From: Apostichopus japonicus
Taxonomy: Eukaryota > Echinodermata > Holothuroidea > Aspidochirotida > Stichopodidae
Direction of reading: 5' to 3'
Length of the DNA stretch: 64,000 bases
Assembly: GCF_037975245.1 (NCBI RefSeq)
Contig: NC_092569.1
Span: 18,781,001 to 18,845,000 of the forward strand
Shown: positions 8,723 through 43,687 of the stretch, one piece after another
How the letters are laid out: every line of letters begins with the position of its first letter
Numbering within the stretch: the first letter of the stretch is position 1
Notes under the pieces: generated by a model
What the model was told of the DNA's origin: nothing
What the model saw: only the letters and a program-made list of their open reading frames with translations
Database searches by the model: none
Made by a program: the position numbers and the translations under genes

Positions 8723-9917
8723 ACCAATGGATTTCAAAGACTGACTACAAATGTACTGGAATATTTAAATAGGGCAGGACTTGTAATATATCAGTGACGT
8801 ATAAACCATGGAGGTTTGAGTACAAACTACCAATGGATTTCAAAGACTGACTACAGATGTTGTACTGAAATATTTAAATAGGGCAGGACTTGTAATATAT
8901 CAGTGACGTATAAACCATGGAGGTTTGAGTACAAACTACCAATGGATTTCAAAGACTGACTACAGATGATGTACTGGAATATTTAAATAGGGCAGGACTT
9001 GTAATTTATCAGTGACGTATAAACCATGGAGGTTTGAGTACAAACTACCAATGGATTTCAAAGACTGCCTACAGATGATGTACTGGAATATTTAAATAGG
9101 GCAGAACTTGTAATATATCAGTGACGTATAAACCATGGAGATTTGAGTACAAACTACCAATGGATTTCAAAGACTGACTACAGATGTTGTACTGAAATAT
9201 TTAAATAGAGCAGGACTTGTAATATATCAGTGACGTGTAAACCATGGAGGTTTGAGTACAAACTACCAATGGATTTCAAAGACTGACTACAGATGTTGTA
9301 CTGAAATATTTAAATAGGGCAGGACTTGTAATATATCAGTGACGTATAAACCATGGAGGTTTGAGTACAAACTACCAATGGATTTCAAAGACTGACTACA
9401 GATGTTGTACTGAAATATTTAAATAGGGCAGGACTTGTAATATATCAGTGACGTATAAACCATGGAGTTTTGAGTACAAACTACCAATGGATTTCAAAGA
9501 CTGACTACAGATGTTGTACTGAAATATTTAAATAGGGCAGGACTTGTAATATATCGTGACGTATCAACCATGGAGGTTTGATTAAAAACTACCAATGGAT
9601 TTCAAAGACTGACTACAGATGTTGTACTGAAATATTTAAATAGGGCAGGACTTGTAATATATCAGTGACGTATAAACCATGGAGGTTTGAGTACAAACTA
9701 CCAATGGATTTCAAAGACTGACTACAGATGTTGTACTGAAATATTTAAATAGGGCAGGACTTGTAATATATCAGTGACGTATAAACCATGGAGTTTTGAG
9801 TACAAACTACCAATGGATTTCAAAGACTGACTACAGATGTTGTACTGAAATATTTAAATAGGGCAGGACTTGTAATATATCGTGACGTATCAACCATGGA
9901 GGTTTGATTAAAAACTA
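8723..9917. repeat. 109-bp minisatellite, 11 copies
   Basis: Unit starts (accaatggatttcaaag): 8723, 8829, 8938, 9047, 9156, 9265, 9374, 9483, 9591, 9700, 9809; the last ends at 9917. Units are 106-109 bp and nearly identical. Each holds tatttaaatag and gtgacgta words. The last six units form two copies of a three-unit block (9265-9590 and 9591-9917) with the same order of variants. It lies between the convergent trnau1ap and parpbp genes. Confidence 0.97.
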
Positions 9918-11125
9918 CAAAGCCTCAATTGGGACTATTATTTATAGTGTAACTGAACACACAAGTATGTGAATGATAACACATTGGAATACTACCAGTT
10001 CTGAGCTGAGGGAGGATTATAAATTATGCCCTCAATAACCAACAAGAATATACTTTATGTTTTTACATGTGTGCCTCACTGTTTATTCAGCCTTTTCTTT
10101 GTCATAAATATATAGTAATCAAATACAATACAGTAAATGCTATAGAAAACTACATTAAAATAAATACAGGAATGTCAAAATATTCCAATCGCTGAATGTG
10201 GACATCTCTACCTACACACCCCCTCCCCACCCCCCCCTTCCAGGCCCACCATCATCTAAACTACAGATGTCAGTACTAATAACATGTGACTTAAAAAAAT
10301 TCTCATAGGTAAACCTTGATGTTAACAAACTGTTCTTTAATACAGGTTGTATTATCACTAAACAAATTCGGTAGAGATATTCCACTTTCAAAAGTAGGCT
10401 ATTCTTGCAAAACAAGTGCATTTTTTTTTTTGTCACAAACCTCAGAAAGTATTTGAGAGTATGGATTGGATGGTGATCCTACTGTGGATCACAAAGGATC
10501 ACCATCTAGGTCGTTACGAAGACACGTATATCTCTCAAAGTTAAAGTTTCCAGATAACAATCTATCTAACTTTTTTTGCACTTTCTTTCTGGGTTTCTGT
10601 ACATACTATATGTTTATTTAATTGTGTAGGCCAGACTGCGTGCAACTGGCTGTGTTAGGGCAACAACAGGTTTTCCATTGGGTTTAACATCAACCGTATT
10701 ATTGGCCTCACATCTGAGCACTACAAAACTTTTAGAAGTTTTCAAAATTAAATTCTTAAAGGCTTTTGATCCGCCAGAATATTCCCAGCCATGAAGAATT
10801 TATTAATGATGGAGTACAAACTATATCGGTGATTCTAACTAGCCTGAGAACGGCAGTGAAACGCTTGTTGAAGTGAACATTTATTGACTAAATTGGGAAG
10901 CAATTAAAGTTGGACAGACTAGAAAGAAAACTGCCATGAAAGAGAAATAATATCCGCAAAGACTTCTTTCCTCTGCGAGTCTTTTTTTTTAGTCCCCAAA
11001 GTTTCATGATTTGTTGACTCATCACTGATATCCCACATTGACCTGTATCTGTTTATTACCATCTTTAAAACTATATAACATTCTTCTTGGCTCAGACTTT
11101 ACAAACATCATTATTCAGATACAGA
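9918..11125. other. intergenic, presumed parpbp 3' UTR at the right
   Basis: No coding sequence seen. On the minus strand an AATAAA lies at 11052-11057 (TTTATT on plus), about 70 bp past the parpbp stop, a plausible polyadenylation signal. Confidence 0.5.
10469..10506. repeat. perfect 12-bp inverted repeat
   Basis: Arms gatggtgatcct (10469-10480) and aggatcaccatc (10495-10506) flank a 14-base loop that itself contains ggatca. Function unknown. Confidence 0.85.
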
Positions 11126-11589: not shown

Positions 11590-14500
11590 CTGGCGTCTGA
11601 GTGAAACGAAATGAACAAAAAGCAGCGCTAGATATATATTCATGGATGAGTCTGGGGTAAAAAAAAAATTACGGAATTTGGAAAAAATTGCGGTATAGGC
11701 TCAGGTTTGCATATGCTACAGTGTGTTAGGATACTAGTTTTGTCCCCGAGGTAGAATAGAAATCACGGATATTCCGCGAATTCGCAAAAAAAGGCTCATG
11801 GCTGTATATTGTAATTACATTGGTTAACCCTCATCAATAACATGACTCTCTCCAAGCACTTTAGCAATTTAACTTGTTGTTCTTGGAGGGAACATACTGT
11901 ATACTGAGAGATCTAGAGAATGGCATGTTTTAAAAACTGCTAAATAACTGGTTTTGGTATCAATAATTGGAAGTTTGTTTTGGAAAGATCACCTATAAAA
12001 GCTTCTTTTTTTTATATATATGTCCTTTTGTGGACTTTAATTGAGTGACCAGAACTGTAGCCCTAGGATTTACACTTGACAAATTTAAAAACCAACATCA
12101 GAAGTGAATAAATAGCATATATTTATTAAGACAAAAATGTGAATGTACATACTTTACATTTCTCTTCAGCTTCAGTAACATTTTCTGTAGGTGGCAGTTC
12201 CTGGACTGAGGGGGATCTGTAAAACGGGAAGAAAACGACAATTCAGTGTTGCTTACTGTGTAAGGAATGCTGACTCGAATTACAAGTAAAAAATTACAAT
12301 TGTTAATTTTGTATTAGGAAGAGAGCATTTTCTCCATGTTAAGAAAAAAACGAATACTGCAGTGTGTGTTACCCAGGCCGCATACTGTAATATACTACAT
12401 ACCTTAACACATATGGTACTGCATTGTATGTTACCCAGGCCACATGCTGTAATATACTACATACCTTAACACATGGTACTGCAGTGTGTGTTACTTAGGC
12501 CACATACTGTAATATACTGCATACCTTAACACATGGTACTGCAGTGTGTGTTACCTAGACCACATCTTGTAATATACTGCATACCTTAACACATGGTACT
12601 GCAGTGTATGTTACCTAGACCACATTTTGTTGTATATTACATACCTTAACACATGGTACTGCAGTGTGTGTTACCTAGGCTGCATACTGTAATATACTAC
12701 ATACCTTAACACATGGTACTGCAGTGTGTGTTACCTAGACCACATCTTGTAATATACTACATACCTTAACACATGGTACTGCAGTGTGTGTTACTTAGGC
12801 CACATACTGTAATATACTGCATACCTTAACACATGTATGGTACTGCAGTGTGTGTTACCTAGACCACATACTGTAATACACTACATACCTTAACACACCA
12901 TACTAAATCTCATCTCATGCCACACAACATCATACTTAGGAATTATAGCCATGATGTCAACCACTAATCAAAGCTCAGTCATACCTGAATTGTGATAGTA
13001 AAGATGGGAATCTCACTGGTGTACCCTGGCTAGCTTGTTGATCGACTAACTCGTCTTGCCCCTGGTTCTGACTGATGTTGGTGGCCTCAACGTCCAGGAG
13101 CGTACGAAATAATCTGAGGACCTTTTGACCCCTCATGCTTCCTCCAGAACCAACCGGCTGGAAAGGTAAAATATTAAAAAGAAACAACCATTACAAAAAG
13201 ACTGAAACTTTCAGAGTTAAATACCAATGCAGCAATTGATAAGTTTCTTTCCATGTTACCCAACCACTAGTAACCATAACTTTGTCCCTCCCTCCATCCC
13301 ACCCTTCTCAAGGTGCCATGTACCCAATAAGAACTTTTTTAGTGTGACGTACAGTAATGACAGATTGTAAAAATTCCTCACCCCTTCCCCCCACCCCCCA
13401 CACCACAATGTCAAAATATTCTTGGTTTATACCATACAAAAAGACTGATGATAATGATTTGGTTCAACTTTACCCCCACCAAAGAAAGGACAGAAAATAC
13501 CTTTGGTGTGATTTTCAAGTCAACTATCTGTGCCTCAAAAAGATGTTTGGTCTCTTCCAAGAGTTCCTCACAGACTATCTTCATACTCGCTTGGCGCAAA
13601 GAACATGTCCTTGATTTGCTGAGGGTACACTTTAGAGTTTTCAAAACTTTTCTGGCAGCTAGACTGAATGAAGGTAGCAGAAAAAAGAAGGATATTACAA
13701 ATTTTTAAGATGCAGCAAAAGTTTCAAATTGAGTCCAAAAAACTGGAACAGAGAATGATACTATGTAACCACGCTGGGCGCCAGTATTTATGTCATTGTT
13801 TTTTTCCTTTGATCTTTGACTCAATCAAATTGACGACACTCTCAGGGACAAGAAGAAAATGAACATTTAGTCTCACTGCAGGACGTTAGAGACTTTGTTT
13901 TAAATGAATGAAAGTCCTTACTCAACATCGGCAATGTCTTGAGTGATTGTAAGAAGTTTGTCTGCGATATCCACAAACTCTGACAAAGCTTTGGCGTGTT
14001 CAAACAGTGGAGAGTAGGAATCGGATGTGGTCTTCACTCGCCGCATCTCAAAAACAAAGGAAAATGCAGTCTGCATGGAAAGAGAAATTAATATGCATAT
14101 TGATTATAATTGTCACATTTGGTACCATATATACAGTAGGTACTTCAGGAAATCCAATGTAGACTCAATCTGAAACTTAAAAGTAGGCCAGACATGCAAT
14201 TTGGGGCTATACATATTGTTTTAGTTTTATTTCCTGTAATTGAAGGAGGCATGATGGGAAACAAAATAACCCAACCTGCAACAGAGAGAAATCCATTTTT
14301 TTTTTTTATCAATCATCCAAGTTGATATTTTGTGATTGTGTAATTTGTCAAATTAAATTTTTTGATCACGGTTTGAGTGAAACTCTCAGCTTACCAGGAA
14401 CATAGACATTTTCTTTTTGGTTGCAAGGTGTTTCAAGGCCGTAAATCCTTGATGACCCAACCCGCTATCTGGAAGACACAGACATCTGGCCAGGGCTAAT

Positions 14501-29800: not shown

Positions 29801-32800
29801 AGCCCAAGCACCTACGTCTCCATGAATCAAACCAATGTTGTGCAGACATATTCTAAAGACAACGAACATGGTTCCGGAGGCACATAAAGACTGACAGGCC
29901 GGTTGCAAGATGGTTTTGACCACCAATGACATCCTGCCATTCCATTTGAACATCCCTTCCCTACTAAAGTTCCTAATCAAAAACCTAAGTCCCTCCAACC
30001 TCACCCCCACCCCTCCCCCTTCAACCCCACCCCAAATATCATAATAATCATAATAAATAAGTTCTTAATATAGCGCCAACTACCAAAAGGCCTCTAGGCG
30101 CTTTACAAAACCTAAAACAAATAAAAAAATAAAAAGACAGATAAATCAAAGGAATAAAAGTCTAGAAAACACATAAACGAAAATTAAACAGTATGTAAAG
30201 TACGAACACAAAAATCTAAAAACACGAGAAGACTATAAAACAGACCAAAACCTATAAAAAACAAAACAAATAAGCACATAAATATCCCCTGGATACCTCC
30301 AACCTTCATCTTTACATAAAGTACATTAAGTGCCATAGCATTTAACATGATAAATACTGACCCACTCTTTTGAAAGCAGCCAGCATCCATTAGCAATTGC
30401 TGATAGTACATTCAAGGTCCTCCTCTGGTCCCCGGTGATGATGTGAGTGGTTGTAGGACCGACGGTGTCTGTGACTTTGTAACCTCCAAGATTACGAACA
30501 ACAGAAACCATAACATCCTGATCGCTGCAATGGAATATCATTTTCGTAGAGTCTCGTGAACATCGCAAGATACAAGAATAATCACTGGTTTTATAATACT
30601 TGTGATAGAGAATGAAATAAACTATTGTGATATATTTTATCTTCTTTTCCTTCTTTTTTTACTAAAACAGGTAGAGTTTGAGAAACAATTTTACTGAGAT
30701 AGAAACATCAGATGTGTTATATGAAATAATTTTTAAAAAAATTCAAAATGCCTTGCTGCAATTGACTTTCTAAGAATGGTCATAGCTTGGGCAAGAATAT
30801 GTTTCACAACAAGCCATCGACAAAAGGGTCAGTCACAAAAGGGTCAGTCACAAAAGGGTCAGTGGCAAAAGACAAAGTTAAACCTTTACATTGCTCACTC
30901 ATGTTCTTTGGATGAAGAAAAATGCCCAAGATTGTCCGATATTGGTCAACACCAATTACCACGTTGGTGAACAAATATTGAGAATGGCCAATTGATCCTC
31001 TGATATAAATTTTAACAGGCCAAAATTTAGGGCTACAAATGTGTGATTCACGATCTAAACTACAAGAAAAAAAGAAAAAAATTAGGAACTTGGTTACCTT
31101 CTGTGCATGCTAGTCAGCACTATCGTTGGTTTCCTTGTCTGCAGAGGAAGGCAAAACAAAGCTGAGATTGAGCAATGTTTAGTTAAGGTGTTATGATAGT
31201 TGAAAATCAAAACAATATATATTCATCAGTGCGGGGGGCGCATCATAACTTGCCATATGAGGCTGAGAAAATACGAAAATGGGCAGGACAGCTAATGGGG
31301 CTCTCTCCAGCGTTACTGCAGTGGGTGCTGTTGTATTGGTTCTAATGACCATGATCTATACTGTTTTACGGATCTCTGAAGCAAAGTAACACGATCGCGT
31401 GAAAAGCGCTCCAAAGAATGCAGACGTTGCTGGATGAACGTGCACACGGATGCGTTGGGTTGATAGTTCAAGGTTCCTCTAGTGGGATCTACTTAAAGAG
31501 GACCTAAAGAGTAGATTCAATTTACCTTGTTTCCAGGGGCAACTTTTCTGTTCTTACTTCTAGCATTCTTCCTCTTCCTTTCTTGAGTTTCGACATCTCC
31601 AACCTCTTCAGCTGAAAGAAGATCAAAAGGTACAAATATGACAGAGACGTTGTGTGTGACGTTGTTTCAGCGGATTAGACTTGGCTTGTTATCTGTGTTA
31701 CCAGGGTGATTGCGTGTGCTACATGTATCATATATGGGAAGGCGAGGAGACTGAGTGGAGTTGCCCCACCCCCCCTCACACTTTTAGAAATTTTGTTAAA
31801 ATGGACGGTGCTAAGACACAAAATGCTGCTACATTTTTGCAAGTTTTGAAGAGTATGCAATTTTCAACTGCTCAGGATGTACTTTACATGTTATATTCTT
31901 TTTGGGGGGAGAAGTGGGTTCTGAAACCACCAAACCCTCCCCCCTCCATCCAGGCCAGACAATATATGTGTATGCACCATGGACTCATGCTTTGTTTAAC
32001 ATTCTCTTTGAGTAATGTATAGATCGCAGCTGTTTCAAATTCTAAAATTCTACATTTTAGCTGAACTTTGCTGCATATTCTCCTCCCTATTTTGTCCCCC
32101 CCCCCCAATCCCCTCTCCTACCATACAGGCTCTGAGCATCTTATCAGAACCATCTCCCTGTAGAGATGATGACTTTAATCTCTTTCCTTTCTTCCCTGCT
32201 GCAGCTGTTCTTATCCTCCTCCCTATTTTGTCTCCCCCCCTCATCCCCTCTCCTACCATAAAGGCTCTGAGCATCTTACCAGAACCATCTCCCTGTAGAG
32301 ATGATGCCTTTAATCTCTTTCCTTTCTTCCCTGCTGCAGCTGCTCCTCTGTTAACATCTGTCTCCTTTCTTGCTTTTGTGCCATTCTCTTTGAAGTCCTC
32401 CACACTTCTCCTACTTGGCTGAATCATTTCTATAAGTGATTCTGTTTGTGATCCTATTACTGTTGCTGAAATGAAGGATAGCCATGCGGTACACAATGTT
32501 AATTGGTAACAATATTTAATTTGGTCGCCATTGATACTGCACTATGTGTCAGCTTGTCAAAGTTATCCAAAGCCATATCTGTACTAAAAGCAATGAAAAT
32601 TGCTTTAGTAATTTAAGACTTAAAAAATTAGTAATGATTAGAAAATTGAGCCCAACTAAAGCCAAAAATATGCTGTTCACATGTGACCAATGGTTCAAAG
32701 TAAGATAGTAAATTCAGTGTCTGGGTATTCCATTTACGAACACATTTCAGCATGTTCAATTACAAGGTGATTCACTTTTACGAATCTCCACCAGAACTTG

Positions 32801-35800
32801 TAAATTTTCACTCGAGTATCAGACATGAAGCTTACTTTTTTGCATGCTCTAACCTCCTAGTCCTATTCATTTTACGAGTCTCTCCTGTCTGGGGGTCACT
32901 TGTGAATTTCACCTCAATGTACACAACCTCGACTAGAGTAATTTTCACGAGAGAACCTTCTAAACCCCTAGCTTGATCCACTTTAAGAGGCTTTCTCACT
33001 TCATTTGTACATATTAATTTGAACAGAGTGGCAGTCTAAATTTGTTAATTTCACTAAACACTCTCTTTGATACAATAATTGCATGCCAGCATGCTCCAGA
33101 CCTCCAAATGAACTCACGTTAAGGGTCTTGTCCATTGCATATACTTATATATACAGTCAACCCTCACTCATTCATTTCACAGCACAACGAACGACACATT
33201 GGTATGATGCGACTATCAAAATTAAGCTACTTACGGGTCACTATTGACTAGTGCCCTTAATATTACAAAGCAATTGAAAACACAGAAAATGAGAGAATCA
33301 AATTCAAAGTAAAGTCGTACACGAATGATTGGAACACACATAATCTCGAAAAATCAAGTTCACAATAGCTTTAGGGCACTTATTATAACCTTTCTCTTGG
33401 TATTTTAAAACTGGTCATACTAACTGAAAACTATCACATCGAGCTAGGTGTTAGTGTCCATGCATAGCAGATTGTGGTTAATATACCACAAACTAAAGCA
33501 CAACAATATTTGTGTTAATATTTTGGGACATTCACCAGTGAACAGTCAAGGAGTTTTCAATTAGCTGATACATCTCGAAACTTTAATTGAGAATGAATAA
33601 TATGAGTTGATTTTCTGATGATACCTTCATTTTTCTTGGCTTCTCCTCTTGATGTAGAATCATCACCTCCCACTGGCTGTTTCCTTTTAGCCAAAGATGA
33701 CCTTTTGATGGAGAGTCCATCTTTATGCTCTTTCACATTATCGCAGGAAGACGATTTGGGTTCGATCAGAATAGAGGGCGGTTCATCCGATGGTTGCATC
33801 TTCAACAGTCTCCTTCGTTTGGGTTTCCTCTTCGCAATATCTTCTCCAGATGTCTCAGTTAATGACCTCTTCTGACCTGGGGTCTCACTCAGTTCCTCTT
33901 TGCTGTTCTCTGCATCATCCCTGTCAAGACTTCCGTCATTAGGAGTAAATTGTGTCCTTTTATTGTCTTTCTTCATCTCTTTCACATCCTCGTCCCCTTT
34001 CTCTGAGTTGTTACATCCATCTTCGTCGACCTGTTCTCTCGTGAGACGATCTTCTGGCGAGTCCAGGACGACGGTAGGGGACTCCGATTCCGGCCTGACC
34101 TTTGACCCTCTCTTGATCTTTGATTTTCTTGATAACTGTTTAGAGTGACCTTTGACCTTTGCTCCCTTCTCTCCACAAACAATTCCTTTCTGAAGTTGCA
34201 CAGAATTTGTGATGTCAATCATGGTGGTCTGTTTCACCGATTCTGATATTCGACCAGGACACTCTGTGACGACATCGAAACAAAAATGATCCTTCCTGGA
34301 TGTTGTCAAACATCTTACTTCCTTCTTCTGACCGCTCAGGTCTTCCTCTTGCCCGCCTTGGCTGAAAGGATTACTCATCGTTGACCGTCTTGAGCTCCTC
34401 CTTCTTCCTAGTTTCGATCCCCTTGGAGTTGCTCTCATCTCAGAATCTGTTGCCTCCATCGAGACGTCCGCATTCTCCGGCCCTTTCCGTTCCCTTGCGA
34501 CAGGTTCCTTTGGTTTCTCAGACAAGTTAGAGACAGAATCATTTCCTACATTTAAAGGTCCCTCTCCATTACTGGATTTCATATTAATAACGTCATTGAG
34601 ACTAGAGTCAACACCCTTCCTGGAAATATAACTGCTCCTCTTTGTTTTTCGAATGTCCCCTTTAGCCCCTCCCAAGTCCCTCCTTGAAAGTCCAGATGGC
34701 TGAATCTTTTTCACAGATGGACTGTCTTCTCTTGTAACTTTTGCCGATGACCTTCGACCTTTCCGCGGTACGGATGCTGCTATGACTTCCTCTACCCCGG
34801 TGCATTTATCGTCACCGTGAGTTGGTACAGGAGATGAATATTCACGACCTTTCTGTAACTCCGTCCCCTCGCAAGGATTGCCTGTTATATCATCCTGTGG
34901 CATTGACTTGTCTTGACCATATACTGATGGATTAGCCTGGAAGAGAACCTTGGAATACTTGGTCTTATCACCATGGTGATGAACGGTCTTCTTTGAGGCC
35001 AGACAAACCTTCTCCAGTGGGCTTGGTTCATCTGTATCAGAATACAGCAGGCGGTCAATCAGCGAGCTGACGATCTCGGGTTTTTCTATCGGCGAACAGT
35101 GTCCGGAACTGGAGGAGTTGAAAGTGGCGCAAGTGGGAGAGTCCCCCAGACATGGCTTTTCTGAAAAAAACATAAACAAATGAATCAATTAAAGTCTTTT
35201 ACTATGGAATTCAGTGCTGTAAACTATAACACTGAGTAATCTTTGAACAGGAGATGTAAATGGGATGATCAATAGGTTTCCATAAACCACCAGGAGCCAT
35301 ATTATCTTCATCTATTTCAAATTGCTGCTGTGCAGTGGGTTTTAGGTGGGTTTTCTGATCGATTTTACATTTTTAGTTTGTGAAGAGGAAAACTGTGTGT
35401 TATATTCATTCAAGTCTTTGTATTGCTTGCACTGCAGTTATGTTGTATAGGGTGGATTTAGATTCCTCAGTGTTTGACAAAGTGACAGTCCTCGACCCAT
35501 TAGGTGCAAACGTTAATCGCAGGCCCCTTGATTCCAGCACTCATCAAACAGAGAAGAGTTTATTTATCTGGCTTCTATTTGCAATATTTGATCACATGAA
35601 TAAGGTATTAATTGAGCTTCTAAACTAAATAAAATATTTTTTTCATTGTTGATTTATGTTCAGTTAAATAGTCTCTGCTCTGGAGTCAGGCTATACTCAC
35701 GATGATCCACCGGGGATTGGGTTCGAATAGCTTTGAGTTTATCCAGGCATGCCCTCATACTGTCTGGAGTACTGGGAATGAGAGACGGGGAAAATGGCAG

Positions 35801-38079
35801 ACCTGGGAGATACTGGGAGATTGAAAAGACAAAGAGAAGGACAAAGACAAAACAGTTAATAACACTGACAATAAGGTGTACCTTTGACCAGGACTAATCC
35901 ATCTACTCACACTGGTTACGTACTGACAATAATGATTATTGACCAGGACTAATCCACTGCTTACCCAGGTTACCTACCCTGACAATCTTCAGGACTAATG
36001 CTACTTACCCAGGTTACCTACCCTGACAATCTTCAGGACTAATGCAACTTACCCAGGTTACCTACTCTGACAATCTTCAGGACTAATGCTACTTACCCAG
36101 GTTACCTACCCTGACAATCTTCAGGACTAATGCTACTTACCCAGGTTACCTACCCTGACAATCTTCAGGACTAATGCTACTTACCCAGGTTACCTACCCT
36201 GACAATCTTCAAGACTTAATCTACTTACCCAGGTTACCTACCCTGACAATCTTCAGGACTAAAGCACTACTTACCCAGGTTACCTACTCTGACAATCTTC
36301 AGGACTAATGCTACTTACTAAGGTTACCTACTCTGACAATCTTCAGGACTAATGCTACTTACCCAGGTTACCTACTCTGACAATCTTCAGGACTAAAGCA
36401 CTACTTACCCAGGTTACCTACCCTGACAATCTTCAGGACTAATCCACTGCTTACCCAGGTTACCTACTCTGACAATCTTCAGGACTAATGCTACTTACCC
36501 AGGTTACCTACTCTGACAATCTTCAGGACTAATCCACTGCTTACCCAGGTTACCTACTCTGACAATCTTCAGGACTAATGCTGCTTACCCAGGTTACCTA
36601 ATCTGACAATCTTCAGGACTAATGCTGCTTACCCAGGTTACCTAATCTGACAATCTTCAGGACTAATGCTACTTACCCAGGCTGGGCTCTGACGATAAGG
36701 TGTATCTTTAACCAAGACTCGTCCAGGTATTGAAACTGTGGAAAACAAAACGGAAGAAAAAAATGACAAAAATTTTGCATACCTTTAGAAATGTACATGT
36801 GTCAAATTCATGATTCTTGGTAAAGGCAGCACAAGAAATAAAATCAAAATAGGATTATAAATGTCCCATACATCGTTAATATTCTCATTAGGGTACCCCA
36901 ACTTTGTGGGACAGTACAGAGCCATAAAACATCACTCCATTTTGTTGTAAAATTTGTATATTACTAAAGTCTTAATAACCTCATTTCCAATTATACTTAT
37001 CTTTTATATATTTTTATTTTTGAATTATTTGCATTTTGTTAGAAATATTTCCACAAAATTTTGCACTAACCTCAGAATTTCCATAGTAGGATGCCAAAGC
37101 TGATACTATTGGATTGATATCATCAATAATGTGTTACACAAACATACTACAATAATGTCCTGTGATGACCAGTCTGAGCTACATATTTAATCCAACTAAC
37201 CATCTAACAGAAGCAAAAGACACCAATATATATGTTAAGTCTATAGTTATACATATGTCTACACTTATACAACTATACTTATATAAATCAGTCTATACTT
37301 ATAAATGTATTTAAGTATAGACTGATATACCAGTATAAGTTTAGACCTATAAGTATAGATTGATATGTATATGTCTAAACATATACCAGTCTATACTTAT
37401 ACATATATCAGTCTATAATTATAAATATATGAGATCCACACTGAGGGCTTCATCGTTTTTGAAAAAAATAAGAAAAGCTCATCCAAATTATGTCTCTGTA
37501 TTTTGATGGCCAGAAATCAAACTGTTAACTTTGGTCTGCTTTCTTGGTTTGGTTTTTCTAAATAGAAATGCATTAATACCTGCAATAAGTTTTTAAAAAC
37601 AAATGTTTAAGCCTAAGCTCCTAACGCATTTATGGCCGATGTTCTAGGATCTGTCATAAATTACGCATCAAACTCTGTGCTGCAGCTCTTAACGTTACAA
37701 CTGAACCATGTTTGAGCACGAGAAAATACTCCATAACACTTTAAAGGAACAAGTTACTATCGCTAGGAAAACCCATGAAGATATCATGTGTAGCAGACAA
37801 TGCTAATTTCAGATTGGGAAAAGACCTTTAAAATCGACTGCTTGTGAGCAAATGTTAAGGTGTATATTGTTACTCAATTTTTATCATTATTTCAGTCTGT
37901 TTCCATCTCAGTACCCCTAGAGTATCGTTTAATTTATTTATCTTTTTCTTTAACTCTCGCCACGGTATTTTGTAGGTTTTCTAGGTTTAGTTTTCTAGGC
38001 CCCCTGAGAGAGATGTTTATCAAGTTACAGAAATTCTATGAGATGTTTGGAACTTCCCAGGGAAGTATGATACTAGCAA

Positions 38080-41100: not shown

Positions 41101-43687
41101 TGAAATAATGCATGTGCCCTTAACCTCACAGACCTCTGCAATGGTTATCCAAGGTTGCATCATTACATCTCAATCCGGGCAATAATGTTCTCTTGAAATT
41201 GGTCAGCCGTTATAAGCTACAGTATGTATAGTTTATATTGTTTTATATTCAAAGAAATTGTAACATACTTCCAAGCTCTATCCATATCTGAGTACAAACC
41301 CTGCTGATACCACCTGAGCTGCATAAATTTGTGCATTTTGCATGTCACATTCCCATGTTATGCTAGAACCATTATTCCCCATCAACTGCCCTAAGGTTGC
41401 CAAGGTGACCATCAGTTTGTTTCAAGCACTCTCCTCTCTTCTCCCCATAACGTTACAGTGTGCCGTTTTTGATAAAATAGGGTTCGGTTTACAGAGAGGT
41501 TTTTTTTCCCCTTAATGAACACCATACTGTACAGTACCTCTCCACCCAGAGTACCGAGACCACATGAATTCCTCTTTTTCTTGCCCTCTCTAAGGTTGGT
41601 TTCTTTCCATCTTTCCAGATAAGATGGGTCACATTGTTGCTCAGTTTAGAAACAACCTAAATGAGAAGAGAACATGAAAGTAAGGATCAAGAAATTCTGC
41701 ATTAAACAGATCTACTGTATAGTTGCATTTATGTAATCCATAGACAAAAGTCATGCTCAAAATATGTCAAGTAAAAGCTAAGATACTGTCCTAGCGATAG
41801 GCAAATCTCTGTAATTTAGTTGTGTGTACTACAGTGTGCATACTGTACAGAGCTTGCAAAAAGAAAATCCTGCTGTGGTTTAAATCTTACTTACAGACTT
41901 TTACAACTGATTTCTCACTGATATGGAACAAATTAAATAATATATAATAATATTAAATAATATTCAGCTTAGTAGATATGGCTGATTTTAACCTGTCCAG
42001 ACTATGCTTCACAGTTTTCAGTGTACCTCAAGCTCTGCCCCCCCCCCACTCCCCACCCACTCACCAACTCTGCCAAACTTACGTTTGCTCCCAGCTGTTC
42101 TAGCTGGTATTGTACTCCTCTTGACCTGTTCTCTGTCTTTGTCCTGACTTCCACATAGGCTACCACATCTGAAAAGGATCAATTTTATGGATGAGAATAA
42201 ATATGCTAGATTTATGACGCTATATTCTCTTCATGATTTTGCTCCAGCATATCATCTCATGGTTATAATGTTATACTGGATTGTACAGCCATACACATTA
42301 CATACACTGCGTATATATATTTATTAATGAAGTCATGGAATTTGGAAGGTTACTGACCTAACACACTGTGCAATGTATTCCTTACAGTACCTGTATTTAA
42401 ATATTGTTTATCGACCCTGATGCACACTTGCAATAATATCAATCACATGTGGCATCAATATCAGTGTATGAAATTTATTATTAAAAAATGTAAATAATCA
42501 CAATAAAATGTACATATCGATATTAATACCACATGCTTGCAATTATTGCAAGCTACAGTAGGACACCGGGGTTGATTAACACTTTGAGAAAAAACCAGAA
42601 CATAGTGTTTCATCTCTGTATGCATTGACTATAGTTCACAGTGAAGTACTGTACTGTATATATACTCCGCAGTAATGATAGCAAACCCACACTACAGGCC
42701 TGTACTGTATGTTTCCACAAATGGGTATTGGTTTGTACGTACAGTTCCTTAACACTTTATGACACTCAGATACCTGTGTTCAGTTCAACTAAAGACTAGT
42801 ATTATTGCATATTATGCGCAAAGGCAATTCTAATTCTACTGCTAAATACTTACTGAGTACGAAATAGTCTAGTTTTATATTTAAGGAATATGTAAAAATA
42901 ACTGTTCAGATTTTGTACAGCCGTTTAGAATACAGTATGATGCACTTTTGTCTTTCATAAAATACTTGGTTCATGTGTACACTTGTCTTTAAAAATAAAA
43001 TAATTTGCCTCCTGTGTACACACGTTTATCTTCTATACAATGCTTTGGTTCAAAGCCTTACTTAGGCTATTATTTTTTTCTTGCTGATTTATCCTTGAAA
43101 CCTGTACGTGTGGATTTTTGGTTTAGCTGTCAAAGCCCTCTGTACATACTTAAAATTTCATCAAAATGTATCCCTTTTTTTGAAGAAATGTTCTTTTCCT
43201 CTGTGGATTAATGATTGACAAATTATAAAGAAAAATAAATCATTTTTCAGCTGAAGTTTCCTGGTGACATCAGCCATTCTGCTGTTGCCAAATGTATAAA
43301 TTTACAAAATATCATAAAATTTGAACAATTCATATCTTCACAAGACTTATTGCTATGAGGATGTGGTTTTTATCAAAAATTACAGAAAAATTTCAGTATA
43401 TTTGCTTTATAGCAATCATCTTCATCCACCAGATTAATTTTAGTTATATTCAGCTCTCAAATTGTCTCACTTTCATTTCATTTTACAGTACAGTATGGTA
43501 CCTATAACTTATCATTGGAAAAGCACTTCACATGAAAGAGAAATGCAAAGCATGATAGAAATTAACATTCCAATTGAACAAAAGACACTTCTAAGTGTTT
43601 GAATTTTTAAAAAGAAAACTACTTACCTTTTAAAACAAATTTGTCATCTTCACTGATGCAATGGACTTCATTGTCATGCAAATCCAT
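26806..43687 (-). CDS. mcph1: MCPH1 (microcephalin), three BRCT domains, 15 coding exons
   Basis: Exons 5' to 3' (minus): 43687-43627, 42168-42083, 41656-41538, 40301-40211, 38250-38154, 36735-36677, 35812-35701, 35160-33625, 32465-32280, 31611-31526, 31138-31098, 30524-30362, 29250-29173, 28304-28070, 26861-26806. They sum to 3006 nt, 1001 residues, all in phase (human 835). BRCT1 about residues 20-107 (KDVVAYVEV, NNVTHLIWKDG, GIHVVSVLWVE); a disordered centre, mostly the 511-codon exon 8, with RRRSSRRSTM about 461-470 and DITN about 524; BRCT2 about 813-905 (TTTHIITGDQRRTLNVL, ANGCWLLSKEW); BRCT3 about 920-1001 (LLDLLQLCGGAICKSP, ERWVLDCISE). Family role: nuclear DNA-damage response through phospho-peptide binding, and restraint of condensin II. 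Confidence 0.96.
28070..28304 (-). CDS. mcph1: mcph1 coding exon 14 (BRCT3)
   Basis: Acceptor ATGGTAG, donor TTAG/GTAATT. It encodes FFVSESSSPPKERLLDLLQL, CGGAICKSPQQADLCIGE and QERWVL, like human [20 protein letters not shown] and LSEKWVL. An earlier GT inside the last codons (TGG/GTATTA) was rejected because phase with exon 15 requires the later one. Confidence 0.95.
28464..28661 (+). mobile_element. fragment of a 'ggctacgcccctg'-ended element (copy A)
   Basis: The segment 28464-28570 matches three others (49481-49577, 50351-50447, 51195-51289) through words catttcc(g/a)gcgatct, tgtacgct, ccaac(c)(g/t)atggtggc and cgcttagat. It ends ggctggctacgcccctg at 28660. It lies in the mcph1 intron between exons 13 and 14, antisense to the gene. 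Confidence 0.65.
28864..29152 (+). mobile_element. tRNA-derived SINE
   Basis: A box tagccgagtgg at 28872 and B box ggttcgatacc near 28923 give a tRNA-like head. The body holds ggtgggtttttcatcca, cccatctgaaatg and agccaccc, shared with the inverted copy near 39475-39770. It ends in an ATT-rich tail. Inserted in the mcph1 intron between exons 13 and 14, antisense to the gene. Confidence 0.85.
29173..29250 (-). CDS. mcph1: mcph1 coding exon 13 (end of BRCT2)
   Basis: Acceptor CTTCACAG, donor GTAATG. Encodes VLNSLESGYWLPEEPFEVHS, like human [20 protein letters not shown]. Confidence 0.97.
30041..30115 (-). mobile_element. LINE 3' tail
   Basis: On the minus strand: tttgtaaagcgcctagaggc, ggcgctatatta, then an (att)n-like tail. 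This is the same kind of 3' end as at 4243-4500. It lies in the mcph1 intron between exons 12 and 13. Confidence 0.65.
30362..30524 (-). CDS. mcph1: mcph1 coding exon 12 (BRCT2)
   Basis: Acceptor CATTGCAG, donor GTCAGT. It encodes GPTTTHIITGDQRRTLNVL and SAIANGCWLLSKEW, near-identical to human TTTHVLSGKPLRTLNVL and GIARGCWVLSYDW. The TTTH..G segment forms part of the phosphate-binding site in this BRCT. Confidence 0.97.
30819..30870. repeat. 15-bp minisatellite, about 3.5 copies
   Basis: Unit caaaagggtcagtca repeated in a head-to-tail run in the mcph1 intron between exons 11 and 12. Confidence 0.85.
31098..31138 (-). CDS. mcph1: mcph1 coding exon 11 (start of BRCT2)
   Basis: Acceptor CTCTGCAG, donor GTAACC. 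Encodes TRKPTIVLTSMHR, equivalent to human KKPTRTLVMTSMPS. Confidence 0.9.
31526..31611 (-). CDS. mcph1: mcph1 coding exon 10
   Basis: Acceptor TCTTTCAG, donor GTAAAT. Encodes a basic linker EEVGDVETQERKRKNARSKN before BRCT2. Low conservation; supported by phase and splice sites. Confidence 0.8.
32089..32345. repeat. tandem duplication covering part of mcph1 exon 9 and its donor
   Basis: Two units of about 125-130 bp. Plus-strand words cctccctattttgtc, cccctctcctaccata, aggctctgagcatctta, cagaaccatctccctgtaga and ctttcctttcttccctgctg recur in order. The unit near 32222-32345 belongs to the functional exon. The unit near 32089-32213 lies in the intron downstream. Confidence 0.9.
32280..32465 (-). 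CDS. mcph1: mcph1 coding exon 9
   Basis: Acceptor CATTTCAG, donor TCTG/GTAAGA. 61 codons ending AAAGKKGKRLKASSLQGDGS. The 3' third plus the start of the following intron is tandemly duplicated downstream. The second copy has ATAAGA in place of the donor, so the copy retained here is the one that can splice. Confidence 0.82.
33625..35160 (-). CDS. mcph1: mcph1 coding exon 8, large disordered centre
   Basis: Acceptor TTTTTTCAG, donor GTATCA; 511 codons open throughout. Rich in Ser, Lys, Glu and Asp. Recognisable human-like short motifs: RRRSSRRSTM (human KRSTRRSIM) and TTMIDITN (human RTVDITN). Such central motifs are where human MCPH1 contacts condensin II. Confidence 0.93.
35701..35812 (-). 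CDS. mcph1: mcph1 coding exon 7
   Basis: Acceptor ATCTCCCAG at 35813-35815; a second CCCAG ten bases inside would break the frame. Donor GTGAGT. It encodes SLIPSTPDSMRACLDKLKAI, like human [20 protein letters not shown]. Confidence 0.9.
35883..36676. repeat. 43-bp tandem array, about 18 copies, seeded on the exon 6 splice donor
   Basis: The plus-strand unit is aggactaatgctacttacc followed by caggttacctaccctgac and aatcttc, 42-46 bp. On the transcribed strand each unit reads ...aacctgggtaagtagcatta..., copying the CCTGG/GTAAGT junction of mcph1 exon 6, which is the array's right edge. Variants carry GTAAGC or AGTAAGT. The left-most two units are diverged. Confidence 0.95.
36677..36735 (-). 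CDS. mcph1: mcph1 coding exon 6
   Basis: Acceptor CCACAG, donor CCTGG/GTAAGT. Encodes SIPGRVLVKDTPYRQSPAW. Its last bases and donor are the seed of the 43-bp tandem array that fills the start of the next intron. Confidence 0.85.
37287..37326. repeat. perfect 15-bp inverted repeat in an AT-rich repeat region
   Basis: Arms 37287-37301 (atcagtctatactta) and 37312-37326, with a 10-base loop. The surrounding 37195-37440 holds further 'tatacttata' and 'cagtctata' words in both orientations. In mcph1 intron 5. Confidence 0.85.
38154..38250 (-). CDS. mcph1: mcph1 coding exon 5
   Basis: Acceptor CTTTGCAG, donor GTAAAT. It encodes RRKFMEPKDLEEDLQDSRER, like human KKRKCMQPKDFNFKTPEND. A 30-base T run (38082-38111, A run in the transcript) lies 42 bases past the donor. 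Confidence 0.92.
39475..39770 (-). mobile_element. tRNA-derived SINE, inverted relative of the copy at 28864
   Basis: On the minus strand: tggtagagtgg A box, tttgatccctggc B box, then ggtgggttttttcatcca, cccatctgaaatgg and gatagccacc in the same order as the 28864 copy. In mcph1 intron 4, on the gene's strand. Confidence 0.8.
39741..40170. repeat. tandem array of 106-124 bp units growing from the SINE head
   Basis: Unit starts with tttatccactctaccat at 39741, 39858, 39982 and 40088, followed by gcacaggtgttgtg, tgatgtgatgttatatta and ttcattgct. The first unit is the A-box end of the SINE, so the array includes SINE-derived sequence. Confidence 0.85.
40211..40301 (-). CDS. mcph1: mcph1 coding exon 4 (end of BRCT1)
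   Basis: Acceptor CGAACAG, donor GTAAGA. Encodes CKQNQEHVAEKMFPVV then a linker, like human CRTAGAHIDESLFPAA. Confidence 0.92.
41538..41656 (-). CDS. mcph1: mcph1 coding exon 3 (BRCT1)
   Basis: Acceptor CATTTAG, donor GTACTG. It encodes NNVTHLIWKDGKKPTLERA and RKRGIHVVSVLWVE. The human equivalents are KQVTHVIFKDG and KRGVKLVSVLWVE, including the BRCT tryptophan. Confidence 0.96.
42083..42168 (-). CDS. mcph1: mcph1 coding exon 2 (BRCT1)
   Basis: Acceptor CTTTTCAG, donor GTAAGT. It encodes VVAYVEVRTKTENRSRGVQ and YQLEQLGAN, the first strand and helix of BRCT1. Confidence 0.95.
43627..43687 (-). CDS. mcph1: mcph1 coding exon 1, start codon
   Basis: ATG at 43687, donor GTAAGT. It encodes MDLHDNEVHCISEDDKFVLK and joins exon 2 to make KDVVAYVEV, identical to the human start of BRCT1. 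No in-frame upstream ATG is seen in the adjacent sequence. Confidence 0.85.

Follow-up and report, generated by a model that had tools for sequence, protein, structure and literature searches.

The intron that follows a short exon of mcph1, the microcephalin gene, in the holothurian Apostichopus japonicus consists mostly of a minisatellite whose units carry copies of the 5' splice site of that exon. We consider it quite probable that this array traces back to a duplication spanning the exon border and that it is a nearly neutral by-product of repeat growth. The locus holds the donor copies, an older-looking copy of exon sequence in the far flank of the array and a stop codon in frame beyond the true donor, and the same arrangement was observed at exons of other genes in this genome.

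Results

All positions given without a contig are those of the window, by which we mean the whole 64,000-nt stretch of contig NC_092569.1 that was analysed. As judged by protein matches, the minus-strand gene carrying the array is microcephalin. Its C-terminal BRCT exon region (30329–30658, minus strand) matched 3sht, a BRCT structure of microcephalin, at 2.7e-12, the next family following at 5.3e-4, and the region of the N-terminal BRCT exon (41492–41656, minus strand), which matched PTCB-BRCT at 3.6e-9, lies on the same strand, so that the assignment to mcph1 made in the preliminary description of this DNA was upheld. A tektin exon was also seen. It agrees at 104 of 123 positions with one chain of the PDB structure 8snb, which we take to be of sea urchin, the next best match being tektin-4 of 7rro, presumably bovine (70 of 121).

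The exon concerned, called exon 6 after the numbering of the earlier reader, is 59 nt long (36677–36735, minus strand), reads SIPGRVLVKDTPYRQSPAW, ends in phase 0 and has the acceptor TTTTCCACAG upstream. Two of its three frames are open, of which only one, the frame used here, can be read into the next exon with no intervening stop. The true 5' splice site GTAAGT (36671–36676, minus strand; exon end CCTGG/GTAAGT), with a predicted U1 duplex of −11.9 kcal/mol, opens an intron of 864 nt (35813–36676, minus strand), of which the array forms the greater part, and the next exon (YLPGLPFSPSLIPSTPDSMRACLDKLKAIRTQSPVDH) spans 35701–35812 on the same strand. The acceptor of this next exon is itself doubled by a 10-bp repeat (ATCTCCCAG/TATCTCCCAG, window positions 35803–35821), which presents two AG choices that are 10 nt apart and out of frame.

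The array is a minisatellite (35944–36681, minus strand) in which each unit consists of a shortened 3' end of the exon, the donor and the start of the intron; for this region, Tandem Repeats Finder reported a period of 44, 16.5 copies and 92% matches. The unit had been given as 43 bp long and the array as starting exactly at the donor. Both points need correction, as the units measure 44 or 46 bp and also hold exon-derived sequence, and a 37-nt exon copy lies in the far flank. The ladder of copied donors itself was confirmed. After the true donor at 36676 come 16 decoy donors of the form GTAAG[C/T] (35964–36632, minus strand), at 36632, 36588, 36544, 36498, 36454, 36408, 36362, 36318, 36274, 36228, 36184, 36140, 36096, 36052, 36008 and 35964, and a seventeenth, degenerate copy, GTGAGT (35905–35910, minus strand). 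The statement that the exon–intron junction is repeated in every unit was borne out for the donor copies but not for the exact 16-mer AACCTGGGTAAGTAGC, which occurs only six times (zero expected in 100 shuffles), the remaining units varying. Past the true donor, the reading frame runs into a TAA after 12 codons (VSSISPEDCQIR followed by the stop; 36638–36640, minus strand), as had been described, and the use of a decoy would indeed meet a premature stop. A 921-bp query from the array locus returned one place only in the 671.6-Mb genome, in a search that skips simple and common words.

The exon-derived copy lies past the far edge of the array (35865–35901, minus strand) and is identical to the coding sequence of exon 6 at 36689–36725 in 31 of 37 positions. 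When the exon sequence minus its last six bases was aligned to the far flank, this match of 37 nt with 31 identities scored 44, a score reached by none of 2000 shuffles (best 25) and by none of 842 other pieces of the window (best 23). The array units keep TTGTCAG from the end of this segment and the exon end with its donor (CCTGGGTAAGTAG), the middle being absent. Among 16 aligned units there are 12 unit types with a mean pairwise identity of 0.925, and the units are homogeneous across their full length, beyond the donor alone. The last match to the exon ends at 35865, about 50 nt short of the acceptor at 35813; the acceptor thus lying outside any copy, the intron would have grown rather than been gained. 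The configuration of the AGGT model, in which one copy supplies the GT and another copy the AG of a newly formed intron, was not found at mcph1.

In the order of events that we infer, a single tandem duplication would have taken the 3' end of the exon, its 5' splice site and a few intron bases after it, and the duplicated copies would then have shed part of the exon sequence by internal deletion. The shortened 44-bp unit would have expanded into the minisatellite that makes up most of the present intron, with the decoy donors as passengers of the duplicated segment. The spliceosome would be expected to act at the exon-side donor in mcph1 RNA, in which case the array is spliced out as part of the intron and is nearly neutral, and any leak to a decoy would bring in the premature stop.

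A second duplication in the gene, of 135 bp in two copies (32076–32342, minus strand), extends over the donor at the end of what may be a later mcph1 exon (about 32280–32465). Copy 1 has the donor GTAAGA at 32279 and copy 2 reads ATAAGA at 32144, the change of GT to AT leaving the copied donor dead. Two more minisatellites in the window, at 8723–9918 (109 bp × 11) and 12355–12897 (60 bp × 8.9), have edges without an obvious exon.

Throughout the genome, three occurrences of GGTAAGT within short distances gave 721 matches (reversed-word control, 957) and three occurrences of AGGTAAGT gave 221 (control, 373). A genome-wide enrichment of these donor words in arrays was therefore not found, the reversed-word controls exceeding both words, and because a few long arrays dominate such counts they are weak evidence in either direction. 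From the matches listed (for GGTAAGT, contig C1 and part of C2; for AGGTAAGT, C1 to part of C5), we took 18 array loci, which amount to 16 independent arrays when one 18-bp family is counted once.

Among these matches listed, 5 of the 16 arrays start at the donor of a protein-matched exon, and the number rises to as many as 8 with the weaker cases. The five exons matched TIL (L032, 4.6e-7), Glyco_transf_21 (L039, 9.3e-11), chains of SPTLC1, serine palmitoyltransferase 1 (L040, 1.1e-5 to 4.8e-5), Y_phosphatase (L041, 6.2e-10) and GDA1_CD39 (L049, 2.2e-13), the last adjoining an 89-copy array of 47-bp units (G000:C5:21708500-21716000). The weaker cases were L042 (G000:C2:13553000-13557500), where the exon is open and an exon matching short-chain dehydrogenase (7.3e-8) lies downstream; L034, where an acceptor is accompanied by no more than a short open frame; and L038, in which the array found by the word (2208–2796) leaves the exon untouched and a related upstream array (307–1140), its copies mostly reading GTTAAG, starts at the 5' splice site of a VWC-like exon (VWC2L at 1.8e-4, under the Pfam cut-off). 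The 18-bp family (L033, L035 and L036, counted once) and L037, L044, L045, L046, L047 and L048 were not anchored at an exon, and L043 was unclear. This dispersed family, built on AATGGTAAGTATATGGAC, was seen at three places in contig C1 of G000 with similar left flanks and is possibly carried by a mobile element.

The exon end contained in the unit is mostly 20 nt long in L032 and 33–36 nt in L039; the mcph1 units likewise retain an exon end. The 33-bp unit of L042 is open in frame, encoding (VSHESVQIVTK)n, with donors inside the units. As read from its translation, the use of a decoy there would lengthen the protein, which makes this locus a candidate for protein length variation of the kind discussed below for human IFI6.

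For some of these arrays, the encoded protein bears on which donor is used. The exon past the array restores VHC-S-AGAGRTG in the tyrosine phosphatase (L041) and GTI-D-VHL in SPTLC1 (L040), and since reading through past the first donor would break both motifs, the conserved protein requires the exon-side donor. Further GTRAG sites number 13 in the phosphatase, 9 of them predicted to be equal to or stronger than the true donor, and 38 in SPTLC1, where the strongest, at −10.8, falls just short of the true donor at −10.9; as no decoy quite equals it, SPTLC1 is the weaker test of position over strength. At L049, the true donor is followed by 87 further sites, 82 of which are predicted to equal it in strength, and the protein frame suggests that the exon-side donor would prevail over all 87 copies.

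The acceptor word TTTTGCAG, required three times, gave 126 genome matches (reversed-word control, 596), and most rows among the matches listed belong to one dispersed repeat family. A dispersed family built on TAGGGTCTTAGTTTTGCAGTTGGTGGGG occurs at many places (G000, contigs C1 and C10–C15). Seven other places with TTTTGCAG were present among the matches listed, of which two looked non-tandem and five were inspected; an exon directly after the array was evident by eye at none of the five. Exon-anchored arrays thus made up 0 of 5 for the acceptor word versus 6 of 12 for AGGTAAGT (L042 counted), among the matches listed, and this comparison of one acceptor word at five loci judged by eye is suggestive of a better tolerance for donor-spanning than for acceptor-spanning arrays. 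At L058 and L062 (G000:C11:27695100-27697800), a long array of 42-bp units with one open frame (DVYWLPIEQEHFT...) is not located at an acceptor and is possibly coding.

Within the mcph1 array, no donor-specific constraint was detected across the 16 aligned units. The donor columns held 6 variable cells among 144, with 28 among 592 elsewhere, and 25 of 46 windows of nine columns varied as little as the donor. Concealment of the decoys by RNA structure was considered and rejected, the predicted unpaired probabilities being alike for true and decoy donors (0.002–0.08). With the U1 5' end, the predicted duplex energies of the donor copies ranged from −7.2 to −11.9 kcal/mol beside the −11.9 kcal/mol of the true donor. 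The nine of the 17 decoys that match the true donor in this measure make some leak plausible in these predictions. The first three decoys after the exon all have the weaker form GTAAGC, which could reflect selection against leak or a chance clustering of related units.

Discussion

The functional part of the preliminary description, in which the array would tune nonsense-mediated decay or help the exon through U1, was not supported. None of our results suggests upkeep of the decoy donors: donor columns that are no less variable than others, the dead donor of the second duplication and the same architecture in other genes all count against a function.

If the array served as a rheostat, a share of transcripts spliced at decoys would carry the TAA into nonsense-mediated decay, and the copy number would set the amount of full-length microcephalin. 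The position of that stop, in frame after 12 codons, and the equality of 9 of 17 decoys with the true donor in predicted U1 pairing agree with such a mechanism, and an intronic VNTR with a 38-bp unit in human TERT is described as altering splicing and nonsense-mediated decay (PMC11830802). We nevertheless regard it as unlikely, given that the donor columns carry no extra conservation, that a copied donor in this very gene has died and that unrelated genes share the architecture, with a decoy stop after no more than two codons in L032, L041 and L049 and an immediate one in L039 (frame ARR*). An arrangement found in unrelated genes is no feature of mcph1 dosage control.

A slightly more doubtful alternative holds that the intronic sites recruit U1, either aiding the definition of the 59-nt exon or blocking premature polyadenylation in the intron. 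There are 18 U1-complementary sites inside 800 nt, and human MCPH1 is described as using a polyadenylation site within intron 8 (PMC3431399), but again the donor columns are unconstrained, and exons of other genes precede similar arrays. Tandem arrays are prone to assembly error, yet a mis-assembly that created the array or changed its copy number is very improbable in view of the 12 distinct unit types among 16, the old diverged copies at the far edge and the similar arrays at other exons.

Repeat growth after a duplication that spanned the exon border, the reading that we prefer, would make the mcph1 array a simple route of intron growth that leaves the protein intact. More broadly, minisatellites at exon donors may perhaps constitute a recurrent class that enlarges introns, in which the exon-side donor prevails over as many as 87 copies and duplications of acceptors are rarer; we hold this wider proposal with about equal belief and doubt. 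Competition among identical 5' splice sites has been studied mostly with artificial constructs. Were the class real, it would amount to a natural experiment on spliceosomal choice among near-identical donors and on asymmetric intron growth. It would include several natural donor ladders, of which some present a stop at once when a decoy is used and one or more remain open in frame, from which the strictness of the choice and any leak that depends on copy number could be measured by RNA sequencing.

The closest known system is the minisatellite of human IFI6 (6-16), described as carrying multiple splice donors, of which those of two downstream repeat units are used, giving three mRNAs (PMC4526556). 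As far as that description goes, IFI6 and mcph1 are alike in having a minisatellite at an exon donor with donors carried in the repeat units: the mcph1 array abuts the exon 5' splice site and has a donor-like site in every unit (16 GTAAG[C/T] and one GTGAGT, −7.2 to −11.9 kcal/mol). As downstream copies are reported to serve as donors in IFI6, non-use of the decoys cannot be assumed in mcph1. The mcph1 array differs in its 44/46-bp unit, which is derived from a coding exon, and in that its decoys are putative and their use would hit a stop, so that no in-frame lengthening of the protein would result. With its 33-bp unit open in frame, L042 is nearer to IFI6 than mcph1 is. Repeats of the IFI6 type are polymorphic in length between individuals.

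Introns in which a short piece of exon, splice signals included, is repeated in tandem have also been described as intron gain by duplication, including fission-yeast genes with multiple 24-bp copies (PMC2891723). On that account, mcph1 is similar in that its intron holds repeats of this kind, but its duplicated segment spans an existing exon–intron border and the acceptor is uncopied, as would be expected if the intron grew. In TERT, splicing and nonsense-mediated decay are associated with the length of the intronic repeat VNTR6-1, an effect ascribed to G-quadruplexes that lie some 3.5 kb away from the exon (PMC11830802), and in this description the repeat differs from that of mcph1, where the repeats contain copied donors. 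A further case of a minisatellite at a donor was not found in literature searched by title and start of abstract, a search outside which most subscription papers lie. With IFI6 as precedent, the mcph1 array belongs to an already known kind; what was not expected is that such arrays recur in this genome.
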